A stretch of DNA of 39,763 bases from a virus, in the IMG/VR virus record IMGVR_UViG_3300046703_000051, positions 1 to 39,763 of that record. One strand, 5' to 3'. Shown here one piece after another: positions 7,883 through 30,149 of this stretch (within the stretch, counting starts at the first letter, position 1; each line of letters starts with the position of its first letter). The notes beneath the pieces are model-generated. The model made no database searches. It had not been told where the DNA came from and saw only the letters and a list, made by a program, of their open reading frames with translations. The position numbers and the translations under genes were made by a program.

Positions 7883-8224
7883 TCACGTTGCCACCTTCAC
7901 CGCCGTAGCCGCCGCCGTAGTCAGCTCCTTCAGAGCCTTCGCCGGGCTCGCTGCGATCTTAGCCTCGTCGTAGCCCAGCGCCACGGGTTTCGCATCCCGC
8001 TCCAACTTTCCAGCGCGGACGCGATACTTATCCTTGCTCGCGGCAAGATCCGCCAGCACGGCCTGATCCATCTGGGCTTCGTTCACTTCGATGTAAGCCG
8101 ACTCGGACTTACCCTTGGCAACTTCTCCCGCGAGCCACTTATCGACTTCGCCGGGACTGGAAAGCTTGTCGAGGGTGATAATCTGGCCCTCGAAGTCTTT
8201 GTTGGTGCGGTAAATAATCAGCAT
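7883..8224 (-). CDS. Unknown protein co-transcribed with the DGR (113 aa)
   Basis: The ATG at 8224 lies inside the 3' end of the reverse transcriptase gene (7-bp overlap) and its TAGGAG ribosome site is within RT codons, so both are on one transcript. The protein (MLIIYRTNKDFEGQIITLDK) is Ala/Lys-rich and soluble, with a mixed N-terminal part. I do not recognise it. The tight link makes it a candidate DGR passenger, or simply the next tail-region gene. Confidence 0.75.
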   Translation of the reverse strand: MLIIYRTNKDFEGQIITLDKLSSPGEVDKWLAGEVAKGKSESAYIEVNEAQMDQAVLADLAASKDKYRVRAGKLERDAKPVALGYDEAKIAASPAKALKELTTAAATAVKVAT

Positions 8225-9267
8225 ACGAATTCTCCTAATGTCGGCTTGGCTTCACGCCACAGTTTCAAACGCAGGCGGTAGGTGTCGGCGTGCGCCAGAT
8301 GCGCAAACCAACTCCTCAAGCACTCGACCGCCTTCTCTCCAGGCAACAGGCCCGCTCTCACCAGTGCGAGCATCTTCCATAGCCGCCCGCGCCCCGCGAC
8401 GACGTTTGAGCGAAGGACGCGCCGATGGTTGTGCCAGATCCGATACCCAAGAAACGGAACCCCAGTCTTCACCGGGAAGATCCTGGTTTTGGGGTTCACG
8501 ACCAAGCCCATCTCCGCGATGTGTCTCTCCAACTTCTCGCGCCACTCCCAAACCGTCTCCCGATCTTCTCCAAGCAAAAGGACATCGTCCATGTACCTGG
8601 TGGCATGTCGGCATTTCAAAACGTGCTTGACGTGATAGTCGAGTCGCGAGCCAACGATGTTTGCGAACCACTGGCTTGTAAGGTTTCCAATCGGAAGACC
8701 GCGCGCGCCGAAGCCGCCCGGAAACAATCCAGCGTCCGACGTGTAGCTCCCCAATATCCTCCGGCACAGTTCCAGAACGCGAGTATCCGCGATCCGCCAT
8801 TCCAATTCTCGCATCACCAGACCGTGCGGGATGGAATCAAAGAACTTTCGCAAGTCGAGCTTGAGAGCGTAGGTGATTCCCGGTTTCCGAAGGTAGCCCG
8901 TAACTCGGTCGATGGCCTTGTGTGTTCCCTTGCCCACTCGGCAGGCATACGTATCGTGAATGAACGTCTCCTCAAACAGCGGAGCGATGACGGAACAAAG
9001 CGCTTGATGCACGATCCGGTCGGAGAATGGCGCGATACGGATGATCCGCTCCTTTGGCTCGTAAATTACCTTCTCTCGGTAAACTCCAGGACGCCATTCG
9101 AGAGATTGAATCCGGTCACGCAACGCGGCCAGATTCTCACCCAAGTTGGCCGTGAACCGCACCACGTCGGGGCGTGTGCGCTTGCCCTTTCTCGCGCGTT
9201 CATACGCGCGGTAAAGATTCCCGAAGTCGTGGACTTTGGCGAACAGATGTTTGTACGTGTGGGGCAT
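8218..9267 (-). CDS. DGR reverse transcriptase (349 aa)
   Basis: An RNA-directed DNA polymerase with the order expected for DGR enzymes: KLDLRKFFDSIPH (first catalytic Asp), GLPIGNLTSQWFANI (the DGR-type IGxxxSQ motif), TRYMDDVLLLG (YMDD active site), and a thumb region after GVPFLGYRIWH. It copies the TR RNA into cDNA with errors at adenines, which then replaces VR. The start at 9267 (MPHTYKHLFAKVHDF) matches the usual N-terminus. The open frame continues upstream to 9528 but that part is TR and spacer. It overlaps the 113-aa gene by 7 bp. Confidence 0.95.
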   Translation of the reverse strand: MPHTYKHLFAKVHDFGNLYRAYERARKGKRTRPDVVRFTANLGENLAALRDRIQSLEWRPGVYREKVIYEPKERIIRIAPFSDRIVHQALCSVIAPLFEETFIHDTYACRVGKGTHKAIDRVTGYLRKPGITYALKLDLRKFFDSIPHGLVMRELEWRIADTRVLELCRRILGSYTSDAGLFPGGFGARGLPIGNLTSQWFANIVGSRLDYHVKHVLKCRHATRYMDDVLLLGEDRETVWEWREKLERHIAEMGLVVNPKTRIFPVKTGVPFLGYRIWHNHRRVLRSNVVAGRGRLWKMLALVRAGLLPGEKAVECLRSWFAHLAHADTYRLRLKLWREAKPTLGEFVC

Positions 9268-9416
9268 GAAGGGTTCCGGCTTCAGATTTCGCTGGGCTAC
9301 TCTCTGTCGCCGGATGGTTTTATGTTTGATCCCAACTTCGGGATACAGGACTTGGGCGTGGTGTGCGCGCACTATGACCGCGATCCGTGGATCGCAAGTT
9401 GCTACGAGCGCACAAT

Positions 9417-9528
9417 TGACCGGGCGAAACCCGATATTGTTGTTGGAGTTCTCTGGCGAGTTGTTGGCGTTTGCGTTACGCACTCCTGCGTTCGACTCGT
9501 TGTTCCAGTTCCCACTCACGATGAGCAT
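9417..9528 (-). other. DGR template repeat (TR)
   Basis: A 112-bp segment aligns without gaps to 9947-10058. Counting from 9421 (108 bp), 24 positions differ and every one is A in TR (T on the plus strand). 24 of 34 adenines are changed and none of the 74 other positions. On the coding strand it is dense in AAC codons (11 AAC, 1 AAT), the usual design for maximising residue choice. It lies between avd and RT; its 5' end overlaps the last codons of avd. Confidence 0.97.
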
Positions 9529-9896
9529 TTATCGCCCTCATCCTTTTTCGCCGATCCTATCCAGCCGCCAAGTTGCCTACCCACTTCCCCAACTAACCCG
9601 GAGACGTGTTCAAACTGCTTGACGCTAGTCAGGTGCAACGAAACCGACAACCGCAACAATAAACGCAGGCCGTCAAGTTCTACGCTTGCCTGTTGCAGGT
9701 TGTGTAATCTTTGCTGCTTCGGGGCGGCGTAAGCCGACACACAAAATCGGAATACTCGAAGCAGGCAATCCAGAGTCTGTTGCCCACATGTCGGTCGTAT
9801 CCACTTCGGCCACTTTCCAACGTGAGGGATAAGCCACAATCCTAAATCGTGGATAGCTTGACAGATCGACTGTTCTTCAAACCTCTGGTAACTCAT
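9516..9896 (-). CDS. avd: DGR accessory variability determinant Avd (126 aa)
   Basis: A small helical protein whose C-terminal half matches the Avd four-helix bundle: DGLRLLLRLSVSLHLTSVKQ, FEHVSGLVGEVGRQLGGWIG, as in other DGRs where Avd forms a basic pentameric barrel that binds RT and RNA. The start at 9896 (MSYQRFEEQSICQAIHDLGL) is preferred; a TTG at 9920 would add eight residues. Its stop lies within TR. The order VR, avd, TR, RT is that of many phage DGRs. Confidence 0.88.
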   Translation of the reverse strand: MSYQRFEEQSICQAIHDLGLWLIPHVGKWPKWIRPTCGQQTLDCLLRVFRFCVSAYAAPKQQRLHNLQQASVELDGLRLLLRLSVSLHLTSVKQFEHVSGLVGEVGRQLGGWIGSAKKDEGDKCSS

Positions 9897-9946
9897 AAAG
9901 TCAAAACCGCCAAAGTCCAAACATCAAAAGTCAAAAGCTTTTCACC
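9897..9946 (-). promoter_or_regulatory. Spacer between VR and avd with AAAGTCAAA repeats and AAAAGCTTTT palindrome
   Basis: The plus strand carries AAAGTCAAA, AAAGTCCAA and AAAAGTCAAA in close succession, then the 10-bp palindrome AAAAGCTTTT at 9933-9942 touching the stop of the variable protein gene. In some DGRs a hairpin just past VR helps target replacement. This short palindrome has no loop and is only a candidate. Confidence 0.4.
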
Positions 9947-12065
9947 TGACCGGGCGAAACCCGAGACTGCTGCCGGAGGACCCCGGCGAGTAGTAGGCGG
10001 GCGCGCTACGCACCCCTGCGAGCGACCCGTCGTCCCAGTCCCCACCCACGAAGAGCATAGCCGGAAGACCTTCCGTATACCCGCCGGTTGCGGGGTTGTA
10101 CGATTGCCCCTGAAAATTGTACGCGTAGTCGCCTTCGGTGCCCCACGCGACGCCAGTTCCCGGAGAAGCCGTTTTCAACCCGCCGAAGAACTGCGCCGTC
10201 CACTCCCAGGCATTCCCGACGGCGTCGGAAATCCCAGCCGGACTGTACCAGGACCTCGTCGCGGCAGTGGCCCATCCCGACGTGCGCGGCCCGGTGCCTG
10301 TGAGCGTTCTCCCACTAACGGTCGGATCGGCTGTGGCTTGTTGCGCTCCGGTGGTGTTCCAGGACGGCGGCGCGGCGTTGCCTGCGATTGTGGCGTCGGC
10401 GATGTTGTCCTCGTAAGTCGTGGTGGAGTTGTTGCCAATTGTGACCAGAAACTTGTAGGCCGTCCCGCCAACCAAGGTCCGATAAACATCGCGCGCCGTC
10501 GTTCCTACCGCGCCGACGGGAATTGCGGAGAGCGCCACCTTGCCATTGGTGGTGTAGTCCACCACCGTGACAGCCGTGCTGGCCGCCCCACCCAGCGTTT
10601 TCCCGTAGAAATTCACCAGAGTTACCTTGTACAGGTAAGCGCCGTTGCCCAGAACGCCCGCGCCCGTCCCCGCGAGTGCGGTCGTAGCAGCTGCGGGATC
10701 GGCTTGATACCCCGCGCCGTCGCTGCTCGATCCGCTCCCCGTGTTTCCGTTCATGACGGCGGGAGTGACCGAGCCCGGATTGAATTGCACGGCCATTAGC
10801 CACTCGGCCCAAGTGGGCAGGCGCAACCCGCTCTGCGCGGCAACCTGCATCGTGGACCAGCCGTCGATGGAAACCCACGGCACCACACCGTAGCGCGAAG
10901 CGGGGTATGCGCTCGACCCGGCGGCGCTCGCCGTTGCGTCTTCGTGTGACGCCTCGTAGATCCCGAACGCCACGCCGCCGACTCGCACCATTCCGGGCAA
11001 CGGGACACCGGCAGGCAGATCCTGCATCGCGCGAAACGGCGCGACCATGTTCAGTTTGTCATTGCTGGTGATCGAGTACTGGAAGATCCCACCCGTCGCG
11101 GCCATCGTCGTGTTCACGGCCGGAGCCAGCGTTACCAGCGCCGTGTCCGCCACATCGACGGTGTATGTCGTCGCGGTGTTGTTTGAGATGGTGGCGATGT
11201 AATATTGGAGCACCCCATTCGCCACGCTTCCATAGATTTTCCGCGACGTGGTGCCGGTTTCTCCGAGCGGGATGGCCGTCAAGTTGATCTTCCCGTTGGC
11301 AGTTTTGTCAACCACCGTCGCGGCGGCGCTCAGTATGCCCCGTTGCGTTTCTCCGAGTGCGTTCACAAAAGTGACACTGTAGATGTGCACGCCATTGTCC
11401 ACGCTGCCAGCACCGGAACCAAGAGCCGTGGTTGGGGCTGTGGCCATGGAGATCCTAACCGCCACGCCATTGTGGAAATAGCCGATAAGGCAGACGTTCG
11501 CGGCGGTGTACCCGCTCGGAACGAGTCCGCTCGGATGACTGATCCCGATGGCCGTCAGTTTCGGTCCGGCGGCGGTCAGGAACATCGCGTAGTCGGTTCC
11601 GATAGCGCGCGTGCCCGTGTCGAGCGCCGTGAAGGTAACATTCCCGCCGGCATAGGATAGCGACGCTCCACCAGATGGTACACAGCCTCCGGCAGATACG
11701 GAAACCGTGTCGGCGTCAACCCAGCCAAGCATCAGGCCGACGCGAGCGCCAAGAAATGCCGCCCCGGACAGCCCGCTATCCCCCAGCGTCCCCGCCCCCG
11801 TCCACTTGGGCAGGTAGTTCGGGGTGCCGGTGCCGGTGACGCTTGCGCCCGGCCCCGTGAGGGTCCAAGTATTCAGCGCCGTGCAGACGTAGAGGCCCGC
11901 GCCCGTCCCACTCTTGTAAAATTCATCGGCCTCCGGTGACGGCCGACAGGTGCTCGGCAGCGTCGCGCCCTGCCACACACTCGACGATCCCGGAGTACGG
12001 TTGCGGCCGGCTTGTGCGAATGCAAGGCCGGCGAACACGGCGATGGCCAGCAGTAGTTTTCTCAT
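9942..12065 (-). CDS. DGR variable protein with signal peptide and C-type-lectin-like VR domain (707 aa)
   Basis: Residues 1-19 (MRKLLLAIAVFAGLAFAQA) form a clear Sec signal peptide. Residues 80-100 (NYLPKWTGAGTLGDSG) resemble phage tail-fibre repeats. Two homologous domains of about 100 aa (213-315 and 462-565; shared NGxxxYxVTxVN, NGKxxLxAIPxG, TTxRxxYxxxxxG, NNxTTTY) look like Ig/FN3 folds. The second interrupts an FGE-sulfatase/C-type-lectin-like domain (about 350-450 plus 570-707; RLPTWAEWLMAVQF, GISDAVGNAWEWTAQ). Residues about 670-707 are the VR, ending SLGFRPVR. It probably displays a diversified ligand-binding surface, either on the virion tail or, given the signal peptide, on the lysogen. 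Confidence 0.92.
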   Translation of the reverse strand: MRKLLLAIAVFAGLAFAQAGRNRTPGSSSVWQGATLPSTCRPSPEADEFYKSGTGAGLYVCTALNTWTLTGPGASVTGTGTPNYLPKWTGAGTLGDSGLSGAAFLGARVGLMLGWVDADTVSVSAGGCVPSGGASLSYAGGNVTFTALDTGTRAIGTDYAMFLTAAGPKLTAIGISHPSGLVPSGYTAANVCLIGYFHNGVAVRISMATAPTTALGSGAGSVDNGVHIYSVTFVNALGETQRGILSAAATVVDKTANGKINLTAIPLGETGTTSRKIYGSVANGVLQYYIATISNNTATTYTVDVADTALVTLAPAVNTTMAATGGIFQYSITSNDKLNMVAPFRAMQDLPAGVPLPGMVRVGGVAFGIYEASHEDATASAAGSSAYPASRYGVVPWVSIDGWSTMQVAAQSGLRLPTWAEWLMAVQFNPGSVTPAVMNGNTGSGSSSDGAGYQADPAAATTALAGTGAGVLGNGAYLYKVTLVNFYGKTLGGAASTAVTVVDYTTNGKVALSAIPVGAVGTTARDVYRTLVGGTAYKFLVTIGNNSTTTYEDNIADATIAGNAAPPSWNTTGAQQATADPTVSGRTLTGTGPRTSGWATAATRSWYSPAGISDAVGNAWEWTAQFFGGLKTASPGTGVAWGTEGDYAYNFQGQSYNPATGGYTEGLPAMLFVGGDWDDGSLAGVRSAPAYYSPGSSGSSLGFRPVR
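9947..10058 (-). other. DGR variable repeat (VR)
   Basis: It forms the 3' end of the variable protein gene and matches TR except at TR adenines. The invariant GGGTTTCGCCCGGTCA at its 3' end is the candidate initiation-of-mutagenic-homing stretch. TR Asn codons become Asp, Leu, Ser, Pro, Tyr or Gly in VR, so this copy has been diversified at least once. Confidence 0.97.
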
Positions 12066-12088
12066 GGGTTTCTCCTATCAGTGCAGTA

Positions 12089-12313
12089 TTAGTCGAAACA
12101 GTCGTGCCAGTCAGGCCCGATCAGTAGTTGCTCCATGTCCTCGGGGCCGGGCACGCCGCCCAACAATGGGCACGGTTCCGGCTTTCTCCGCCGGCAGGCC
12201 CGCTGTACCGGCCCGCCGTGTGCCTGTCGCTTGCGCGCCCGGTATCGCTGCGTCCGCGCACGACTCCAGCACTTCTCGCAGTGGCCGCAGTAGCAGGTAG
12301 CCCGTACCGGCAC
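12089..12313 (-). CDS. Small Cys-rich basic protein (74 aa), GTG start
   Basis: GTG at 12313, one base past the upstream stop, opens VPVRATCYCGHCEKCWSRAR. The CxCxxCxxC cluster and Arg-rich stretch (RTQRYRARKRQ) suggest a zinc-binding nucleic-acid protein, like the short zinc-ribbon proteins common in phage genomes. The alternative ATGA frame (to 12121) has poorer composition. It lies just upstream of the DGR variable protein. Confidence 0.55.
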   Translation of the reverse strand: MPVRATCYCGHCEKCWSRARTQRYRARKRQAHGGPVQRACRRRKPEPCPLLGGVPGPEDMEQLLIGPDWHDCFD

Positions 12314-12314
12314 G

Positions 12315-12803
12315 TCATCCCTCGCACGGCTCCCACGCAATCTCGCTGTCTGGCAACCCGCACCTATCCTCCCGCGCGCAACAGGCCAGTAGCACGCCCG
12401 CAAACTGCTGAGTGCAGGTGTCCAGGCGTGCCGACCACGACACCGGGAATATGGTCGGGTTGCTCGCGGTCAGATCCAACCGCGTGATCGAGAACGTCGC
12501 GGTTGCCACGCCGCCCCCAATCAGCACCGATGCCGGGCCGGTGAATCCAGTCGGCAGAGTCACCGTCACGGTGACACCCGGAGCCTTCGCCGGCGCGGTC
12601 AGGGTGATGGTGCAAGCGGTCGTGTCGCCCGGCTCCATCTCCGTCGCGGCACAGGCGAACGCGGACAGGGCAACCTTGGGCTTCAGGAGGATACTCCAGA
12701 CTTTCTCGGTGATGCCCTGCTTCACGACCACTTGTACGGTTTGCGCCGGCAACGCGCTGGCGAACAGCGCGGCGGCGAGTAGGAACAGCGTTGCGAGTCT
12801 CAT
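12315..12803 (-). CDS. Exported Ig-like protein (162 aa)
   Basis: MRLATLFLLAAALFASALPA is a signal peptide. The mature part is beta-rich with a pattern like bacterial Ig/BACON-type domains (CTITLTAPAKAPGVTVTVTL). Six or more Cys near the C-terminus (CTQQF, LACCARED, CGLP, EPCEG) suggest disulfides outside the cytoplasm. The AAGGAG site 7 nt before ATG 12803 sets the start. It is next to the exported DGR target, so the two may act at the same place. Confidence 0.75.
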   Translation of the reverse strand: MRLATLFLLAAALFASALPAQTVQVVVKQGITEKVWSILLKPKVALSAFACAATEMEPGDTTACTITLTAPAKAPGVTVTVTLPTGFTGPASVLIGGGVATATFSITRLDLTASNPTIFPVSWSARLDTCTQQFAGVLLACCAREDRCGLPDSEIAWEPCEG

Positions 12804-12849: not shown

Positions 12850-13524
12850 ATGGTTAAAAACAAAGCAGCGGTAGCGCTCGGACGCCTCGGCGGCAAGGCT
12901 AAGGCCAAACTCCCCAGGGGATTCGCCGCGATGGACCCGAAACGCCTCAGCGGGATCGCGCGTAAGGCGGCGGCGAAGCGGTGGAAGAAGCCCCTGGCCG
13001 TCCTGGCGCTGGCAGTTCTTCTGCCCGCGCTCATGGCGGCCCAAGGCGAGCCGGCCTTCATTCCGCGGTGGCCGGGCAACGGCCCTATCCGCTACGTCAT
13101 CGACTCCAGCGCGGAAGCGTACCGCCCGGAGATCCTGACCGCGCTCAACGTCTGGGGTAGAGAGTTGCTTGCCGGATCTTTTGTCGAGGTCCAAGACCCT
13201 TCCTGGAATCGAACCATCGTGTTTCGCGTAGCGCCCTTCGGCCCCGGAAACACATTCCTGGCCATGAGCATGTACCCGGCGCCCCTGATCGTCGAGCCGT
13301 GGGCTGGTGACGTGACGCTCAACTCCGATGCCGGCTGGAACCGTGCCGAGATGCGCTCGCTTCTGGTCCCGCTGCTCATCCATGAAATCGGTCACGCACT
13401 GGGCATGGGCCATTCGTGGCAATCCGATTCCGTGATGTTTCCGAATATCGACCCGAGGAACGTGCAGTTGGGCACCGCGGACCGCCGCCTGTTTTGGTGC
13501 CTCTATAACGGCGTGTGCAGATAG
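12850..13524 (+). CDS. Matrixin-like secreted zinc metalloprotease (224 aa), opposite strand
   Basis: HEIGHALGMGHSW (about residues 177-189) is the HExxHxxGxxH zinc site of metzincins and SVMFPN provides the Met-turn expected in matrixins. The N-terminus (KAAVALGRLGGKAKAK and IARKAAAKRW) resembles a small stand-alone phage protein. It is followed by a hydrophobic KPLAVLALAVLLPALMAAQG export segment, so the gene looks like a fusion. It is the only plus-strand gene in the late region, has its own promoter, and ends 2 bp from the convergent gene. This is typical of a moron expressed in the lysogen. The substrate is unknown. Confidence 0.88.
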   Translation: MVKNKAAVALGRLGGKAKAKLPRGFAAMDPKRLSGIARKAAAKRWKKPLAVLALAVLLPALMAAQGEPAFIPRWPGNGPIRYVIDSSAEAYRPEILTALNVWGRELLAGSFVEVQDPSWNRTIVFRVAPFGPGNTFLAMSMYPAPLIVEPWAGDVTLNSDAGWNRAEMRSLLVPLLIHEIGHALGMGHSWQSDSVMFPNIDPRNVQLGTADRRLFWCLYNGVCR

Positions 13525-24543: not shown

Positions 24544-25124
24544 GCGAAGTGGCTCCTGCCCCAACTTCCGAGCATGTGCTGCGCAGCGAACGCCGCTTGC
24601 TCTTTCGGAACCTGCCCGGAGTGCCATCCCATGATGAGCAACCGCATCCCGACGAGGACCGATTGGGTGACCGCGACGGCCGTCGTCGTGAATCGAATTG
24701 TGACGGCAGATGATGGCCAGGCCACGAACGCGGGCCAGGTCTCGCCGTAGGGTGGCATGATGAGCGCACGCGCGAGGTCCACAATGTAGTCAGTGCCCTC
24801 CGCGAGCGCGTGCGTCGCGCCGTCCGAATCCTTGTAGGTGATGAGGTCTACGGACTTCAGTGGCTCGCGGAGTCGGATCTCCCAGCCGTGGAAGTAGTCC
24901 AGCGAAAGATCCCATTGCTTTTCGACCAAGTCGCGGCCCTGGTACATCTCGGCTTGCTCGCGCGCGGCTGTAATGAAATCCGAGACCATGGCATCAGCCG
25001 CGGCATCGGTTGGCGAATACTCCGGCAACCGAAGGAACGCCTTCGCCTCGGAGAGCGTGATCGGCTCGACGAACGACTGCGCCGGGCTGGTTACCGTCAG
25101 AACGATTGATCCGTGTCTACACAT
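24540..25124 (-). CDS. Head-tail connector, gp6/gp15-like (194 aa)
   Basis: FVEPITLSEAKAFLRLPEYS followed by the helical core MVSDFITAAREQAEMYQGRD is the hallmark of connector proteins that bind under the portal. A beta-rich central part (LREPLKSVDLITYKDSDGAT) and a C-terminal helix follow. It starts by overlapping the glycosyltransferase gene by 8 bp, showing that the sugar cassette is embedded in the head-to-tail operon. Confidence 0.85.
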   Translation of the reverse strand: MCRHGSIVLTVTSPAQSFVEPITLSEAKAFLRLPEYSPTDAAADAMVSDFITAAREQAEMYQGRDLVEKQWDLSLDYFHGWEIRLREPLKSVDLITYKDSDGATHALAEGTDYIVDLARALIMPPYGETWPAFVAWPSSAVTIRFTTTAVAVTQSVLVGMRLLIMGWHSGQVPKEQAAFAAQHMLGSWGRSHFA

Positions 25125-25980
25125 TGGCCACCCCGTAGAGATTCAGGCCGTTGAAATATGCCGCGCCATGTTCCGCCCGCAGCCGCCGGCACTCCGCTTC
25201 CTGCCAAGGTTCGTGATTGAGTTTCAGGTGCGGCAGCAAGTCGCGGTAAGGCTTCCACCAATCCGGCTGTATTGCCCGCGTGGCGATATTGGCTTCGTCG
25301 AGCGCCTGGGAATAGGTGTGGTCGATGAATGCTACAGACTTCTCCGGCCAGCGAATCCGCTCGGTCATTTTATAGAGGGCGTGTTTTGCTACCAGCCGAC
25401 GCCAACTCGCAAACTGTAGGTGCATCACCCCACCGGGCACCGGCAGCAACGTGCCGATGGGAAGCACGCCATAAGGAGTCCTGTGGTGGTGGTCATAGTC
25501 CCCATTCATCCGCCATGCGAGATTAGGGGTTACCGGAAATGCCAGCGCCAGATCGGTGCGGTTACTCCACACGCTCCGGTCGTCGCGGTAGGCGTCGATG
25601 CCGCGCCACATAGCCAGCATTCGCGTTCGCAGAAACCGCCCATAGGCCACAGCCTCGATTTGCGGGCGGATACAGCCCAGCAGGTTGCCCGTCAGAACCT
25701 CATCCGCGTCTACGATGGCGCAATGGGTCGCGCCGCGAGCGCGGGCGGCATCGAGCAGCCGTTGCCTGTGCGCCATCTCGCGCCAGACGCCATCTGGCTC
25801 CGTCAGGATCGCAACGCGCCCCGGATGCTCGGCTGCGATCTCGGCAAGGATAGCCGGCGTCTCGTCGGTGGAGGCGTGGTCCAATGCGATCAGGTCATCG
25901 CAGTATCTCAGTGCCGCGCGGGCGCTCAAACCGAGTACCCAGCTTTCATTCCGGCACGGCATCAATGCTACGAGTTTCAT
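25117..25980 (-). CDS. Glycosyltransferase family 2 (287 aa)
   Basis: MKLVALMPCRNESWVLGLSA, DDLIALDHASTDETPAILAE and AIVDADEVL (DxD metal/nucleotide-sugar motif) define a GT-A fold of family 2. The C-terminal half carries a conserved HHHRTPYG-type segment. It would transfer a sugar in the cytoplasm to a glycan, lipid carrier or protein; the acceptor is unknown. It is the last gene of the cassette before the connector. Confidence 0.85.
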   Translation of the reverse strand: MKLVALMPCRNESWVLGLSARAALRYCDDLIALDHASTDETPAILAEIAAEHPGRVAILTEPDGVWREMAHRQRLLDAARARGATHCAIVDADEVLTGNLLGCIRPQIEAVAYGRFLRTRMLAMWRGIDAYRDDRSVWSNRTDLALAFPVTPNLAWRMNGDYDHHHRTPYGVLPIGTLLPVPGGVMHLQFASWRRLVAKHALYKMTERIRWPEKSVAFIDHTYSQALDEANIATRAIQPDWWKPYRDLLPHLKLNHEPWQEAECRRLRAEHGAAYFNGLNLYGVANV

Positions 25981-26153
25981 ACTGCCTTCAGATGCACACA
26001 GGAGTCGTCATAGCTGGCGTGCAGATTTATTTCGCTACCGTCAGTAAACCTGATAAGCCATTGTTCTGCATAGCAATATATCCCCTCGATAACTGATTCT
26101 CCGTCGGGCTCTATGGCCGCTATCGTTTTCCCGATGAGTTTTGATGGTTGCAT
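25977..26153 (-). CDS. Small unknown protein (58 aa)
   Basis: ATG at 26153, 1 nt past the upstream stop, starts MQPSKLIGKTIAAIEPDGES and ends in ATGA with the GT2 gene. The fold is probably small and beta-rich (SVIEGIYCYAEQWLIRFTDG, EINLHAS). The tight junctions at both ends support it as real. Confidence 0.65.
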   Translation of the reverse strand: MQPSKLIGKTIAAIEPDGESVIEGIYCYAEQWLIRFTDGSEINLHASYDDSCVHLKAV

Positions 26154-26154
26154 G

Positions 26155-26811
26155 TCAGTAAGCCGCGTCCGCTACAAGCACCGTCTCTTGCGTCTCCCCG
26201 CCCCTGTAGGCGAACCATGCTGGCGGATCGGTCAGAACCATGCCGAGCCGTGCCGCGATGACACTGGCGGCCGTCTGATCGTGCCGATGCCCCGTCACGC
26301 GCGGGTCCGCGCTGGCTTCGCCGTCTTTGTTCGTCCACGGCCCCCGGAAACTGCCGTTTTGTGCCAGCCGCAGATACTCAGCGGCGAACGTCGCGCCGAT
26401 CTCGGAGCGGAGGTTCAGGCCGAACGTGGTCGCCACAACGTGATCTTGCTGAAACGCCTCTTCGCGCGTGATGCCAAGCAGTGGGAGCGCCGCGTCGCTA
26501 CACCACTGGCCGTTCTTAAACCCGTAGTTCCGACTGAACCAGTAGCCCTTCGACTCGATCAGATCCCAGAGCGGTTCCATGGACCGGATCGGCAGGATAC
26601 AGGCGTCCGCCCAGAGGACCAGATCCGCGCCGGCCAGTCGGCCCGCCTCGACGGCAAACGCTTTGAACGAGTACGGCATCCGCTTATGAGTCAGCGCGCC
26701 GGGCGGCATCTGGTCGGCCCAGCACATCGACGGATCGCTCAGCGCGAGCTTCAGTCGCCGCTGGCCGGCGACGTAAGCCCCGGTAGCCACGTTCACGACA
26801 AGCCGCCTCAT
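26155..26811 (-). CDS. Glycosyltransferase-like protein A (218 aa)
   Basis: The start at 26811 (MRRLVVNVATGAYVAGQRRL) forms ATGA with the FkbM gene. Motifs shared with the gene at 27913: VLWADA (DxD-like), SMEPLWDLIESKGYW, WCSDAAL, FGLNL and GHRHDQTAAS. The pattern suits a GT-A enzyme using a nucleotide sugar, though I cannot name the family. The two copies arose by duplication. Confidence 0.7.
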   Translation of the reverse strand: MRRLVVNVATGAYVAGQRRLKLALSDPSMCWADQMPPGALTHKRMPYSFKAFAVEAGRLAGADLVLWADACILPIRSMEPLWDLIESKGYWFSRNYGFKNGQWCSDAALPLLGITREEAFQQDHVVATTFGLNLRSEIGATFAAEYLRLAQNGSFRGPWTNKDGEASADPRVTGHRHDQTAASVIAARLGMVLTDPPAWFAYRGGETQETVLVADAAY

Positions 26812-27386
26812 TTCCGCACCAGGACTATGTTTTCGCCGCTGAAATACACGCAAGCATACCCCTGGCAGGCGGCCTGAATCTCTCCGGGCCGGCCATCGTG
26901 CTCAACGCAAATGCACAGAGGCCGTTGGCCAAGCTCCCACAGCCGTCGGAGTAGTAATTCGCTCGTGCCCTCTGTGTCGATGCTCACAAAGTCCGGGTCG
27001 CCGTCAACCAGAAGCGATTCCAGGGTGATTCCGCGAACCAGAACCTTTTCCGGCTGATACGCTACGATGCCGCGCCATTTCTCCCATGTATCTGGATCAG
27101 AAGTCGAAACGGCGTCGGCTGTGATCCACATCTCGACGGGCTCTCCCGTGAGAGTGACGGCGGCATTCACCAGTACAATGCCATTCCCTGGCGGATAGGC
27201 GGCCAGCAGGCCGGCGAACGGACCAGGGGACGGCTCTACCATCACCCCGGACCAGCCGCGCTCCCACAGCGCGCGCGTGTTCGATTTGTCCGTGGCGTGC
27301 CAGGCGCCGATGTCGAGGAAGCGGCCGGTTGGCTCTGGGCAGGCCCGTAGGATATGCTCCTGCTCGAAATTCTGGCTAAAATTCAT
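26808..27386 (-). CDS. FkbM-family methyltransferase (192 aa)
   Basis: The start at 27386 (MNFSQNFEQEHILRACPEPT) overlaps the previous stop. GRFLDIGAWHA is the SAM-binding motif I and MVEPSPGPFAGL fits the acidic motif II. PDFVSIDTEGTSELLLRRLW is the FkbM signature (DxEGxE-like). FkbM enzymes O-methylate sugars and natural products, consistent with glycosyltransferases next door. Confidence 0.85.
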   Translation of the reverse strand: MNFSQNFEQEHILRACPEPTGRFLDIGAWHATDKSNTRALWERGWSGVMVEPSPGPFAGLLAAYPPGNGIVLVNAAVTLTGEPVEMWITADAVSTSDPDTWEKWRGIVAYQPEKVLVRGITLESLLVDGDPDFVSIDTEGTSELLLRRLWELGQRPLCICVEHDGRPGEIQAACQGYACVYFSGENIVLVRK

Positions 27387-27913
27387 GCAGCCCCCGGAAT
27401 CGATACGGCGAGGCACATGCCCCGGTGAAGTTGCCGCACGCCGGGGAACTGGTCGAACTCACGACCTTGGAAAGTGGTTCGGTGGCATTCGTACTCGTTG
27501 CCGAACGTCGCGCCCTGATCCATCCGACCCAAAGGCACCGAGACTATGACGTGGGAGTTTTGGCGTACCAGATCGGACAGAAAATAGCTACCCCGCGCCG
27601 GCGCCAGATGCTCCAGGGAATCCACCATTAGGACCAGCGGCCAGCCCGCCGGCGACGGATCAGTGAAATCGCGGATCTCCCACTCGTCGTAGCAGCCCCA
27701 CGCCGGGTTTTCATATCCGGCGAATCCCTCAACCCCATGAATCTTCCGCTCCCACTGATCCGGGTTACAGCGTCCATACATCGCGTCGAGAACCTCGCGG
27801 CAGAGCACTCCGAATTTACCGAAGCCGATCCCTAGTTCGATCATGCGCGCCGGCTGAAGCCGGTACACCTCGGCCACAATGGCGGGCACGGCGGCCATGT
27901 CAGAAATCGGCAT
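27383..27913 (-). CDS. Class I SAM-dependent methyltransferase (176 aa)
   Basis: The start at 27913 (MPISDMAAVPAIVAEVYRLQ) overlaps the previous stop by 1 nt. ARMIELGIGFGKFG is motif I, HGVEGFAGY provides the acidic residue after strand 2, and LMVDSLEHLAPARG lies at motif IV/post-IV. A sugar or protein acceptor is likely from context. It overlaps the FkbM gene by 4 bp. Confidence 0.8.
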   Translation of the reverse strand: MPISDMAAVPAIVAEVYRLQPARMIELGIGFGKFGVLCREVLDAMYGRCNPDQWERKIHGVEGFAGYENPAWGCYDEWEIRDFTDPSPAGWPLVLMVDSLEHLAPARGSYFLSDLVRQNSHVIVSVPLGRMDQGATFGNEYECHRTTFQGREFDQFPGVRQLHRGMCLAVSIPGAA

Positions 27914-28602
27914 CAGACATTCCTCTCGATGAACCCGCCGGGGTCTTCGATGGTCGTGAACTTCGTCCACTTCGGCTTCAACCCCAACTTCCAGAGCACG
28001 AACGAGAGCGCCGCCTCATCGTGCCGATGGCCCTGTACGCCCTTGTCGTCCGAGCAGAAGCCCTCGGTTTTGTCTCCCCAAGCTCGAATCGGTCCACCCG
28101 TGGCCTTATGCGGCCCATCGAAAGCTCCGGCGATGTAGAGGCGGTTCCACTCAGCCCAGATCTCGCGGCCATGGCAGTGGTCGAGATTGATACCTGTCAG
28201 CCCCGACAGGACCAGCGGAATCGTGCGCGCCGTCGCGCGGCCGATGCCGTAAATCTCAAGCGCCCGGTCGGTACACCAGTCGCCAAGAACCGAGTCGCCT
28301 TGCGGCGCAACATACCAGCCCTCGCGCTCGATATGCTCCCAGAGTGGCTCCATGCTCGCGCGCGGGCGGAAGGTCGAGTCCATCCACAGCACTTGATTGT
28401 AGCCGGTCGAGAACGCAGCGCCCATGGCGTAGAGCTTAAATGCGTACTGGTGGGTCAGGTCATGCGGGGGGCAGCCGGGCGGCAGCGCGCCGGCCCAGGT
28501 TATCAGGTCGGACCCATCCGGGAATTTGCAGCACCGCGCCCGTAGGACGCCCGTCTTGCGCGGGTAGTCCCCGCCGATACCGACGTTTACGATGGCTCGC
28601 AC
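27913..28602 (-). CDS. Glycosyltransferase-like protein B (229 aa), GTG start
   Basis: Paralogue of the 26155 gene, with VLWMDSTFRPRASMEPLWEH, WCTDRAL, GINLDHCHG and GHRHDEAALS. The N-terminus MRAIVNVGIGGDY parallels MRRLVVNVATGAY of copy A. The GTG start overlaps the 68-aa gene by 16 bp. Divergence between the copies is large, so the duplication is old or the genes were acquired separately. Confidence 0.7.
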   Translation of the reverse strand: MRAIVNVGIGGDYPRKTGVLRARCCKFPDGSDLITWAGALPPGCPPHDLTHQYAFKLYAMGAAFSTGYNQVLWMDSTFRPRASMEPLWEHIEREGWYVAPQGDSVLGDWCTDRALEIYGIGRATARTIPLVLSGLTGINLDHCHGREIWAEWNRLYIAGAFDGPHKATGGPIRAWGDKTEGFCSDDKGVQGHRHDEAALSFVLWKLGLKPKWTKFTTIEDPGGFIERNV

Positions 28603-28793
28603 GTCTTAACCTCAACCATACAACTCGGGCGGATGACTTCCAGTAGCCGCTCATCCCCGATGCACTCGTAGTACAGCGTGACGATGCTTCGAGAATTGCA
28701 GTCGATGACAAACCGCCGGCAATTCTCAGGGAGCAAGCCGGCCTCTTTCATGGCGCTACATAGCGCCGTTCCGTCGATGATTTTGTTTTTCAT
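28587..28793 (-). CDS. Small unknown protein (68 aa)
   Basis: ATG at 28793 (MKNKIIDGTALCSAMKEAGL) overlaps the upstream stop (ATGA). A helical N-terminus is followed by a beta hairpin region (RRFVIDCNSRSIVTLYYECI). Its length and pattern recall small phage regulatory proteins but no family is recognised. Confidence 0.65.
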   Translation of the reverse strand: MKNKIIDGTALCSAMKEAGLLPENCRRFVIDCNSRSIVTLYYECIGDERLLEVIRPSCMVEVKTCEPS

Positions 28794-29479
28794 AACGCAC
28801 ACGGTTGGTGGCCAGGGAAGTCAGCCGCTTTCCGCTGTGAAAATATCAGGCCCGTCCTGCTGAAATCAGCATTCGCCTGCCTGAGATACTCCGGCATTCG
28901 GCCCGTGGTGCGGCCCCAATGGTTGTGATATTGAGTCAGGTCGCGGCGCTGCCACAGCACTCCGAGACGCGTTGCAACTTCCTGCAATTCTTCGTCAACC
29001 CACATATGTGGATAGCCAGACCAGAGTGGCCCCGCTCCGCCATACATCCGCCGGCAGAATTCCGCGCCGCACCAGGCCGAGCCGCAGACGCGATCCGCGT
29101 AAGCCGAGCCGCAGAAGTTCTTATCGTTCCGATCCGCTCCCCAGCGGTCCCCGGTGGGCTGCATAACGCCGAAAGTCCCGCCGAAGTACTCTCGGCACTC
29201 TCGCGCAATATCCTCCGGCGCGTGCGTCGGGTCCGGGTCGATGTCATCGCCCGCGAGGATGCACCACTCCGCACCGCGCTTCAGCGCCTCGGCCACCAGC
29301 GCGTTCACCGAGGCGGCGTAGCCGGGGTATTCGCCAGTGAGCAGCAGGTCGCACTGGACCTCATCGTCGCCGGTGTCTCGCCAGATCGCGGCTTTGTAGC
29401 CGCGCGCGCGCCAGCGGTCGATGACGGCTTGCGCTTCGGCGGTGGGCTTCCTTGATGGGATGCAAAGCCAGGCGCTCAT
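28790..29479 (-). CDS. Glycosyltransferase-like protein C (229 aa)
   Basis: The start at 29479 (MSAWLCIPSRKPTAEAQAVI) overlaps the 26-aa microprotein stop. CILAGDDIDPDPTHA is an acidic DD motif like the DxD of GT-A enzymes, and a WxDEELQEVA segment follows where family 2-like enzymes have the catalytic base. CGSAWCGAEFCRRM is Cys-rich. Family uncertain; GT-A fold is the best reading. Confidence 0.7.
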   Translation of the reverse strand: MSAWLCIPSRKPTAEAQAVIDRWRARGYKAAIWRDTGDDEVQCDLLLTGEYPGYAASVNALVAEALKRGAEWCILAGDDIDPDPTHAPEDIARECREYFGGTFGVMQPTGDRWGADRNDKNFCGSAYADRVCGSAWCGAEFCRRMYGGAGPLWSGYPHMWVDEELQEVATRLGVLWQRRDLTQYHNHWGRTTGRMPEYLRQANADFSRTGLIFSQRKAADFPGHQPCAL

Positions 29480-29556
29480 AACCAGTTCCATCGCAAATAT
29501 ACAATCAGCACTGCTACGATCACAGCAAAAATCAGGCAGTACGCAAACGGAGTCAT
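29476..29556 (-). CDS. 26-aa single-span membrane microprotein
   Basis: MTPFAYCLIFAVIVAVLIVY then LRWNWL: one hydrophobic helix with a basic/aromatic C-terminus. ATGA overlaps link it to both neighbours, with no spare base, which is hard to explain unless it is translated. It could anchor a glycosyltransferase to the membrane. Confidence 0.65.
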   Translation of the reverse strand: MTPFAYCLIFAVIVAVLIVYLRWNWL

Positions 29557-30149
29557 AATTTCACCCAACTCGACCCGGTCGGATTCCCGCGCGGCGACGT
29601 GTTGCCTGGGTGGGTCGTCGCCCACATCATCTCCCCAGCTGGAACGCTCACGAGACCACCGCGCGCCGCGGCTTGCGCGACGAAACCGTTATCCTCTCCG
29701 ACCATGACCTCCGGGAAATGGTGAAGCCGCCACCACTCGCGCCGGTAGACGAGCGAAGTCCCGAGGGCATACTTAGCCGGGCCATCGTAGAGCCACCAGC
29801 GGGCGCCGTCCGAGAACCGCATCGCCCGATAGCCGGTGACTTGACATCCTGGGTTCGCCAGCAGCCTGCCGACTTGATCCGCGAGGCGATCCGGGTGGGA
29901 GAAGTCGTCATCATCGAAGTGCGCAATGATCTCGCCGCGTGCCGCTTCACAGCCGGCGTTGCGAAGTGTGCCGATTGGCGGCTTACCGGGCAAGTGGAGG
30001 TTGCGCTCATTTGGCCTTAGGAGGTCTGCCACGTTTTCGCCGCTCGACACTACCAGAATTTCCAGGGGACTGTACTTCTGATACCGCGCGCACTGCAACG
30101 CGTAGGGCAGCCAGGGCCGGCGGTTCCGTGTCAGTAGCAGGCACGTCAC
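29553..30149 (-). CDS. Glycosyltransferase family 2 (198 aa), GTG start
   Basis: VTCLLLTRNRRPWLPYALQC and YSPLEILVVSSGEN form the GT2 N-terminus; AHFDDDDFSHPDRL carries the DxD; SLVYRREWWRLHHFPEVMVG and EDNGFV suit the acceptor loop and catalytic Asp. The only in-frame start after a stop is GTG 30149, with an AAAGGAGGGG site about 20 nt upstream separated by a small hairpin. Its first 143 bp overlap the gene at 30007 in another frame. Confidence 0.82.
   Translation of the reverse strand: MTCLLLTRNRRPWLPYALQCARYQKYSPLEILVVSSGENVADLLRPNERNLHLPGKPPIGTLRNAGCEAARGEIIAHFDDDDFSHPDRLADQVGRLLANPGCQVTGYRAMRFSDGARWWLYDGPAKYALGTSLVYRREWWRLHHFPEVMVGEDNGFVAQAAARGGLVSVPAGEMMWATTHPGNTSPRGNPTGSSWVKL

Follow-up and report, generated by a model that had tools for sequence, protein, structure and literature searches.

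The window analysed here, that is, the whole 39,763-base stretch of IMG/VR virus record IMGVR_UViG_3300046703_000051, carries terminase, portal, major head and tape-measure genes, which bears out the description of its retroelement as phage-borne in the original prediction. On the minus strand lies a diversity-generating retroelement (DGR) in the order target gene with variable repeat (VR), avd, template repeat (TR), 149-nt spacer and reverse transcriptase (RT) gene, as in Bordetella phage BPP-1 (Table 1). All the core parts that had been predicted, namely the RT, the accessory variability determinant (Avd), the TR/VR pair and a lectin-type target, were identified, and the cassette is almost certainly a complete, probably functional BPP-1-type DGR of a tailed phage; this confidence concerns the DGR and not the role proposed below for a repeat array beside it. 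It is one more ordinary, well-preserved DGR of a known type, more than 30,000 DGRs having been on catalogue by 2021 (PMC8144416), and its unusual features are a missing hairpin and a periodic array of YTG triplets after VR.

The repeat search returned one gap-free direct repeat pair of 112 nt, and no third copy was present in the window. On the coding (minus) strand, TR and VR differ at 24 positions, every one of them a TR adenine (14 A>G, 5 A>T and 5 A>C); TR contains 35 adenines in 112 nt, or 34 in the 108 nt counted originally, and the non-adenine positions are all identical in VR (77/77 over the full repeat, 74/74 over the shorter block). The predicted gap-free alignment with 24 of 24 adenine-only changes was therefore reproduced exactly, and the bias has a hypergeometric P of 2.4e-16. 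VR is read in the frame of the target gene, which then stops at 9942-9944; changes at TR adenines can create no stop codon, and the number of possible protein variants is about 10^17. The AAC codons stand at the same places as in the TR of BPP-1. The stretch shared by TR and VR ends in GGTCA, followed by GGTGA at VR and ATTGTG at TR, an arrangement kept in the relatives, and the initiation of mutagenic homing (IMH) site at VR is distinct from its counterpart IMH* at TR, as is characteristic of DGRs.

Homing activity was assessed in five elements, the window and the related loci L002, L004, L005 and L019, whose RTs are 60-72% identical to the window RT. Their TRs differ pairwise at 9-21 non-adenine sites, and each VR matches its own TR at all of them; within the compared blocks, mismatches fall on adenines in 23/23, 17/18, 10/10, 11/11 and 15/15 cases. 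From this agreement, homing appears to have continued after the lineages split, and point mutation of VR would be a very unlikely origin of such concerted differences. It had been predicted from the perfect bias that the system acted recently; the bias by itself is insufficient for this, because homing copies every non-adenine TR base into VR, and the claim draws its support instead from the concerted evolution of TR and VR across the five elements. In L207, a related contig with avd but no RT adjoining the repeat at the TR position, 10 non-adenine mismatches occur in 90 nt, as expected once homing stops. That the pair arose by chance or by ordinary duplication without DGR activity has a negligible probability and is excluded by this comparison, given the strength of the adenine bias and the same pattern in each related element having both TR and VR.

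Three of these related loci show further peculiarities. In L207 (reverse complement 590-720), the repeat at the TR position ends like a VR (GCCAGATAA, with an in-frame stop) and has VR-like codons in its 3' half, which suggests TR/VR recombination and decay of the element. The RT active site of L005 (6001-7047) reads YMDN, not YMDD, while its TR/VR pair keeps a clean adenine-only pattern; this may be a recent inactivation, a sequencing error or a tolerated change. In the TR of L002 (2764-2880), CTC TGG AGC GAC stands where the TRs of the window, L004, L005, L006, L019 and BPP-1 have AAC/AAT TGG AAC AAC/AAT, and the VR of L002 has the same letters as its TR; the four changes lie close together at conserved adenines and could have come from VR sequence written back into TR, from mutation of TR and subsequent homing, or from a chimeric assembly.

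The RT is contained in a 436-aa open reading frame (ORF; 8218-9528) that matches RVT_1 and PHROG 1423 ("Reverse transcriptase", 2.9e-128). This ORF begins inside TR and runs through it in frame, and the start that aligns with the relatives and with brt of BPP-1 is the ATG at 9267, 149 nt after TR. The motifs of DGR-clade RTs, (I/V/L)GxxxSQ and YxDD, are represented by IGNLTSQ and YMDD; a lesion in the catalytic Asp pair was looked for, and the pair is intact. Comparison with a DGR RT profile, which had been suggested as a check, returned the BPP-1 RT 8ub7 at 8.3e-64 with the family profile. The Avd gene starts at ATG 9896 in an ORF open from 9920 (134 aa), its 3' end, with the stop at 9516, extends over the first 13 nt of TR, and its family profile matches the BPP-1 Avd structure (Bbp7, 4dwl). 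Pfam, PHROG and structure-profile matches thus uphold the RT with YMDD and IGNLTSQ, the Avd and the lectin-like target of the original prediction; an Rfam search of 8000-12300 gave no match. It was also seen that PHROG 1423 matches the ORF from residue 5, so that the in-frame TR is seemingly included in annotated phage RTs, and L002 and L019 show the same read-through into the RT ORF; this is probably an annotation artefact.

Table 1. Features of the DGR in the window, with positions counted from its first base.
Feature	Position	Strand	Evidence or remark
Target gene, 707 aa	9942-12065	-	Pfam mtd_2nd 7.6e-10, FGE-sulfatase 4.3e-05; AGGAG upstream of ATG 12065
Signal-peptide-like N-terminus MRKLLLAIAVFAGLAFAQA	12009-12065	-	Hydrophobic core, AXA site; rule-based prediction
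Mtd second-domain homology, residues 117-211	11433-11717	-	Pfam mtd_2nd
Beta-rich module copy 1, residues 212-324	11094-11432	-	Absent in all six relatives
Beta-rich module copy 2, residues 461-572	10350-10685	-	Inside lectin domain; in L004, L005, L019, L118 and L120, not L002
Variable repeat (VR)	9947-10058	-	3' end of target gene; GGTCAGGTGA (IMH-like)
YTG array, TTG x4 at 7-nt spacing	9902-9934	-	TTG at 9932-9934, 9925-9927, 9918-9920 and 9911-9913; a fifth 9 nt further on
Avd, accessory variability determinant	9516-9896	-	bAvd PF22296 3.4e-14; PHROG 3206; profile matches Bbp7 4dwl
Template repeat (TR)	9417-9528	-	3' end GGTCAATTGTG (IMH*-like)
Spacer between TR and RT, 149 nt	9268-9416	-	Expected priming and RT-Avd binding region of DGR RNA (function: PMC12875486, BPP-1)
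DGR reverse transcriptase, 349 aa	8218-9267	-	IGNLTSQ and YMDD intact; BPP-1 RT 8ub7 match 8.3e-64

Guo and co-workers (PMC3240598) described a GC-rich stem of 7-10 bp, capped by a GRNA loop, that lies 4-34 nt downstream of VR. This hairpin is usual but not universal, its loss impairs homing without abolishing it (PMC3240598, PMC12875486), and it is treated here as an auxiliary, non-defining feature of DGRs. A scan that gave the 8-bp stem of BPP-1 as its control found no GC-rich stem of 7-10 bp after VR in the window or in six relatives. The TTG array begins right after the target stop codon, where the hairpin is missing, and in the 39.8 kb of the window four YTG at 7-8 nt spacing occur only at this site, on either strand. 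A periodicity of 7 or 8 nt in the 42 nt after the stop codon was found for 46% of the first 90 DGR targets, compared with 11% of the intergenic stretches after other genes of the same loci (P 6e-11). In a second set, from viral contigs fetched afterwards, the figures were 20/55 and 7/144 (P 7e-8), and YTG outnumbered its complement among the periodic cases by 28:1. The first set prompted the idea of an array; the RT profiles used to fetch the second were related to some loci of the first, so that the second set is held out, not phylogenetically independent.

The array survey comprised 127 TR/VR pairs after deduplication, and the point where TR/VR homology ends served as the anchor of their alignment. 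On the VR side, successive YTG triplets were 7 nt apart in 156 cases and 8 nt apart in 80, other distances being rare, and the TR side had no peak. An array was defined as a chain of at least four exact YTG at 7-8 nt spacing, a rule that was fixed after both sets had been viewed for periodicity and that is likely to overlook variant forms, for example CTTAACT or CTTGG tracts. Such chains were found on 67/127 VR sides (38/51 in the second set alone) and on 0/127 TR sides, with 0/127 for the complementary triplet, 3/2,540 in shuffled windows and 25/20,110 in background windows. BPP-1, the laboratory model, has two YTG at 7 nt only, a possible reason why the pattern was overlooked; a word search of open-access papers found no description of it. 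Three earlier ideas were given up: a family-specific YTTTGR heptamer gave way to the general YTG rule once the survey had been made; an Avd translation leader was rejected as the cause of the array, which is present at 16 of the 25 VRs that were classed as having no avd behind them (about 3 of the 16 being misclassified, as avd does follow in L004); and a link to the TAACTGA heptamers of Beggiatoaceae, which resemble the array, was dropped after a word search found no mention of reverse transcriptases or retroelements in PMC4679880.

It has been reported that in BPP-1 RT-Avd, bound to the spacer RNA, makes adenine-mutagenised cDNA, primed within the RNA, that this cDNA is taken up at VR with the aid of IMH and the stem-loop, and that how DGR cDNA enters VR, and finds VR rather than TR, is not understood (PMC12875486). 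In the window, RT and Avd would reverse-transcribe the TR RNA, making errors at its adenines, and this cDNA would replace VR where the gene for the Mtd-like tail protein ends, so that a host-binding lectin domain varies. The YTG array may mark VR, and not TR, as the recipient, taking the place of the hairpin missing in this family; it could be read by the Avd ring or by replication proteins acting on the lagging-strand template. We tentatively propose that Avd-dependent DGRs in general have a so far undescribed cis-element in the periodic YTG array 3' of VR, which marks the recipient repeat, is recognised by the RT-Avd machinery, perhaps with one unit per Avd subunit, and works without a hairpin in this phage family.

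A more specific form, which is possible but doubtful, is that the Avd pentamer itself reads the array, 4-5 YTG units on the sense strand, one per subunit, tethering the RT-Avd-cDNA complex beside VR. Avd is a pentamer, and TRAP, which reads spaced triplets in RNA, provides an analogy; Avd is not known to have an assigned role at the target site. When Avd was assigned by an iterated profile, the array was confined to loci carrying it (65/109, against 0/15 of those without; P 5e-6), and it also occurs at VRs without avd behind them, including second targets elsewhere in the locus. The distribution of chain lengths has two humps, at 1-2 and at 4-5, with 4 and 5 the commonest array lengths as a pentamer would predict; triplet and spacing are all that is kept, the TR side is without an array, and RT-Avd-RNA complexes are available in PDB (8ub7 series). 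However, 44 Avd-carrying loci have no chain of four by the strict rule, including BPP-1 with its chain of two, the Avd-less loci form separate clades, and the binding is a prediction.

Alternatively, the triplets may be start sites for primase or replication on the lagging-strand template, keeping VR single-stranded or priming repair across it. E. coli DnaG favours CTG, and 81% of the array triplets on the sense strand, which is complementary to the cDNA, are CTG. DGR editing in E. coli is best with that strand as the lagging-strand template, but it is unaltered by the level or recruitment of DnaG, a result called inconclusive by its authors (PMC12875486). Moreover, primase start triplets vary between phyla while YTG is constant, and the absence of the array in Avd-less DGRs is left unexplained, so this explanation is regarded as improbable. 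It is quite unlikely, too, that the array is a functionless by-product, made of slippage repeats left by repeated cDNA integration. Its position exactly where 3' cDNA integration ends would suit such an origin, and similar heptamer repeats are found in some bacterial intergenic DNA (PMC4679880). However, outside YTG the units are no more alike than composition predicts (likeness of the 4-nt spacers between successive units 0.377 versus 0.357 expected, P 0.38), the strand bias is strong (28:1 in the second set), and the spacing is fixed at 7-8 nt across distant phyla. Since triplet and spacing are kept while the spacers drift, a recognised array is favoured over slippage.

The target consists of a signal-like start, an Mtd second domain, two beta-rich modules and a C-type-lectin domain of the FGE-sulfatase type ending in VR. 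The FGE-sulfatase-type match is only just over the Pfam cut-off, and the family profile matches the Thermus DGR variable protein 5vf4 and Mtd-I1 1yu3; by these sequence profiles, VR lies at the 3' end of a gene with a C-type-lectin fold, and the target is inferred to be an Mtd-like receptor-binding protein. An AlphaFold model of the 707-aa protein (seven sequences) reached a mean predicted local distance difference test (pLDDT) score of 38 and was not used. The beta-rich module, about 110 residues long, stands both before and inside the lectin domain and is common in viral contigs (more than 400 stretches); its AlphaFold model has seven strands (pLDDT 63), and a comparison with PDB gave no match (best E 2.3, TM <0.35), so that the label "Ig-like" was not confirmed. 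No match to the target protein or DNA was found among 50,697 phage records.

Residues 1-19 of the target resemble a cleaved signal peptide by a rule-based prediction, and with this start it is conceivable, though rather unlikely, that the protein is exported to the lysogen surface, either instead of serving as a virion tail protein or in addition to it. Export would be in line with the signal-like N-termini of the targets in the window and in its closest relative, L002, both preceded by good ribosome sites, with the likewise signal-like start of the upstream gene (start 12803), and with the published survey in which phage DGR targets were reported to be without signal peptides (PMC6199706). 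Against this, the architecture is of the Mtd type, the target sits behind a 1733-aa tail-like protein, and the relatives L004, L005, L019 and L118 are without a signal-like start, the prediction itself being rule-based. The upstream gene (12315-12803, minus strand) has its signal-peptide-like start (MRLATLFLLAAALFASALPA) after a good ribosome site, and a similar neighbour is found in L002 at 38-442.

Besides the missing hairpin, several points weigh against a functional DGR of a tail protein whose array serves as a recipient mark. The role of the array is a statistical inference from loci related to one another, and the association of Avd with the array is confounded with clade, the Avd-less loci being clades of their own. 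Homing is supported by the comparison of TR and VR between lineages, VR variation within a population being a prediction; the lectin fold of the target rests on profile matches; and a signal peptide is unexpected on a tail fibre.

Other genes of the window were also noted. A small protein (MLIIYRTNKDFEGQI...) is encoded directly downstream of the RT (7883-8224, minus strand) and is recognisable in L002 and L004 in the corresponding position. A Matrixin-type protease gene (12850-13524, plus strand; Peptidase_M10, 7.1e-13) with a hydrophobic signal-like stretch near its start lies immediately upstream of the target gene, on the strand opposite to the structural genes. Several genes clustered between the head and tail genes (25117-30149, minus strand) look, from their translations, like glycosyltransferase and methyltransferase genes.

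With this cassette, one more phage joins those that diversify a host-binding protein, and the array matters more. If the proposal is true, a simple, strand-specific, countable motif at VR and not at TR, confined in the surveyed loci to elements with Avd, would make the choice of cDNA recipient testable by mutation, and the array would help to locate DGR target sites.

Compared with known systems, the element is closest in layout to the BPP-1 DGR (mtd-avd-TR-brt), with which it shares gene order, VR at the 3' end of the tropism gene, Avd, the length class of TR, the positions of AAC codons, a similar TR-RT spacer (149 nt versus 144 nt in BPP-1) and a target with an Mtd second domain and a C-type lectin. 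Unlike BPP-1, it has no GC-rich hairpin after VR and has four TTG at exact 7-nt spacing instead of two YTG, its longer target contains two inserted modules and begins with a signal-like stretch, and its RT is about 35% identical to the BPP-1 RT. The IMG/VR contigs L002, L004, L005 and L006 and the Chloroflexi metagenome-assembled genome contig L019 have RTs 60-72% identical to that of the window and a homologous target, Avd and TR wherever the contig covers them; L002 is without both modules, L004, L005 and L019 are without the signal-like start, and L006 ends before the target. The structural genes differ between the window and these relatives, with no portal match in L002. With the Thermus aquaticus DGR variable protein (5vf4), the target shares the FGE-sulfatase-type lectin motif LTGTGPRT...PAGIxDxVGNxWEW, whereas no Mtd second domain was matched in the Thermus protein. 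In tentaclins, an N-terminal lectin is followed by Ig domains; in the window target, the lectin is C-terminal and a module, not confirmed as Ig-like, lies inside it. The 2021 catalogue of Roux and co-workers (PMC8144416) likewise contains phage-encoded DGRs whose targets are tail proteins with C-type lectin folds.

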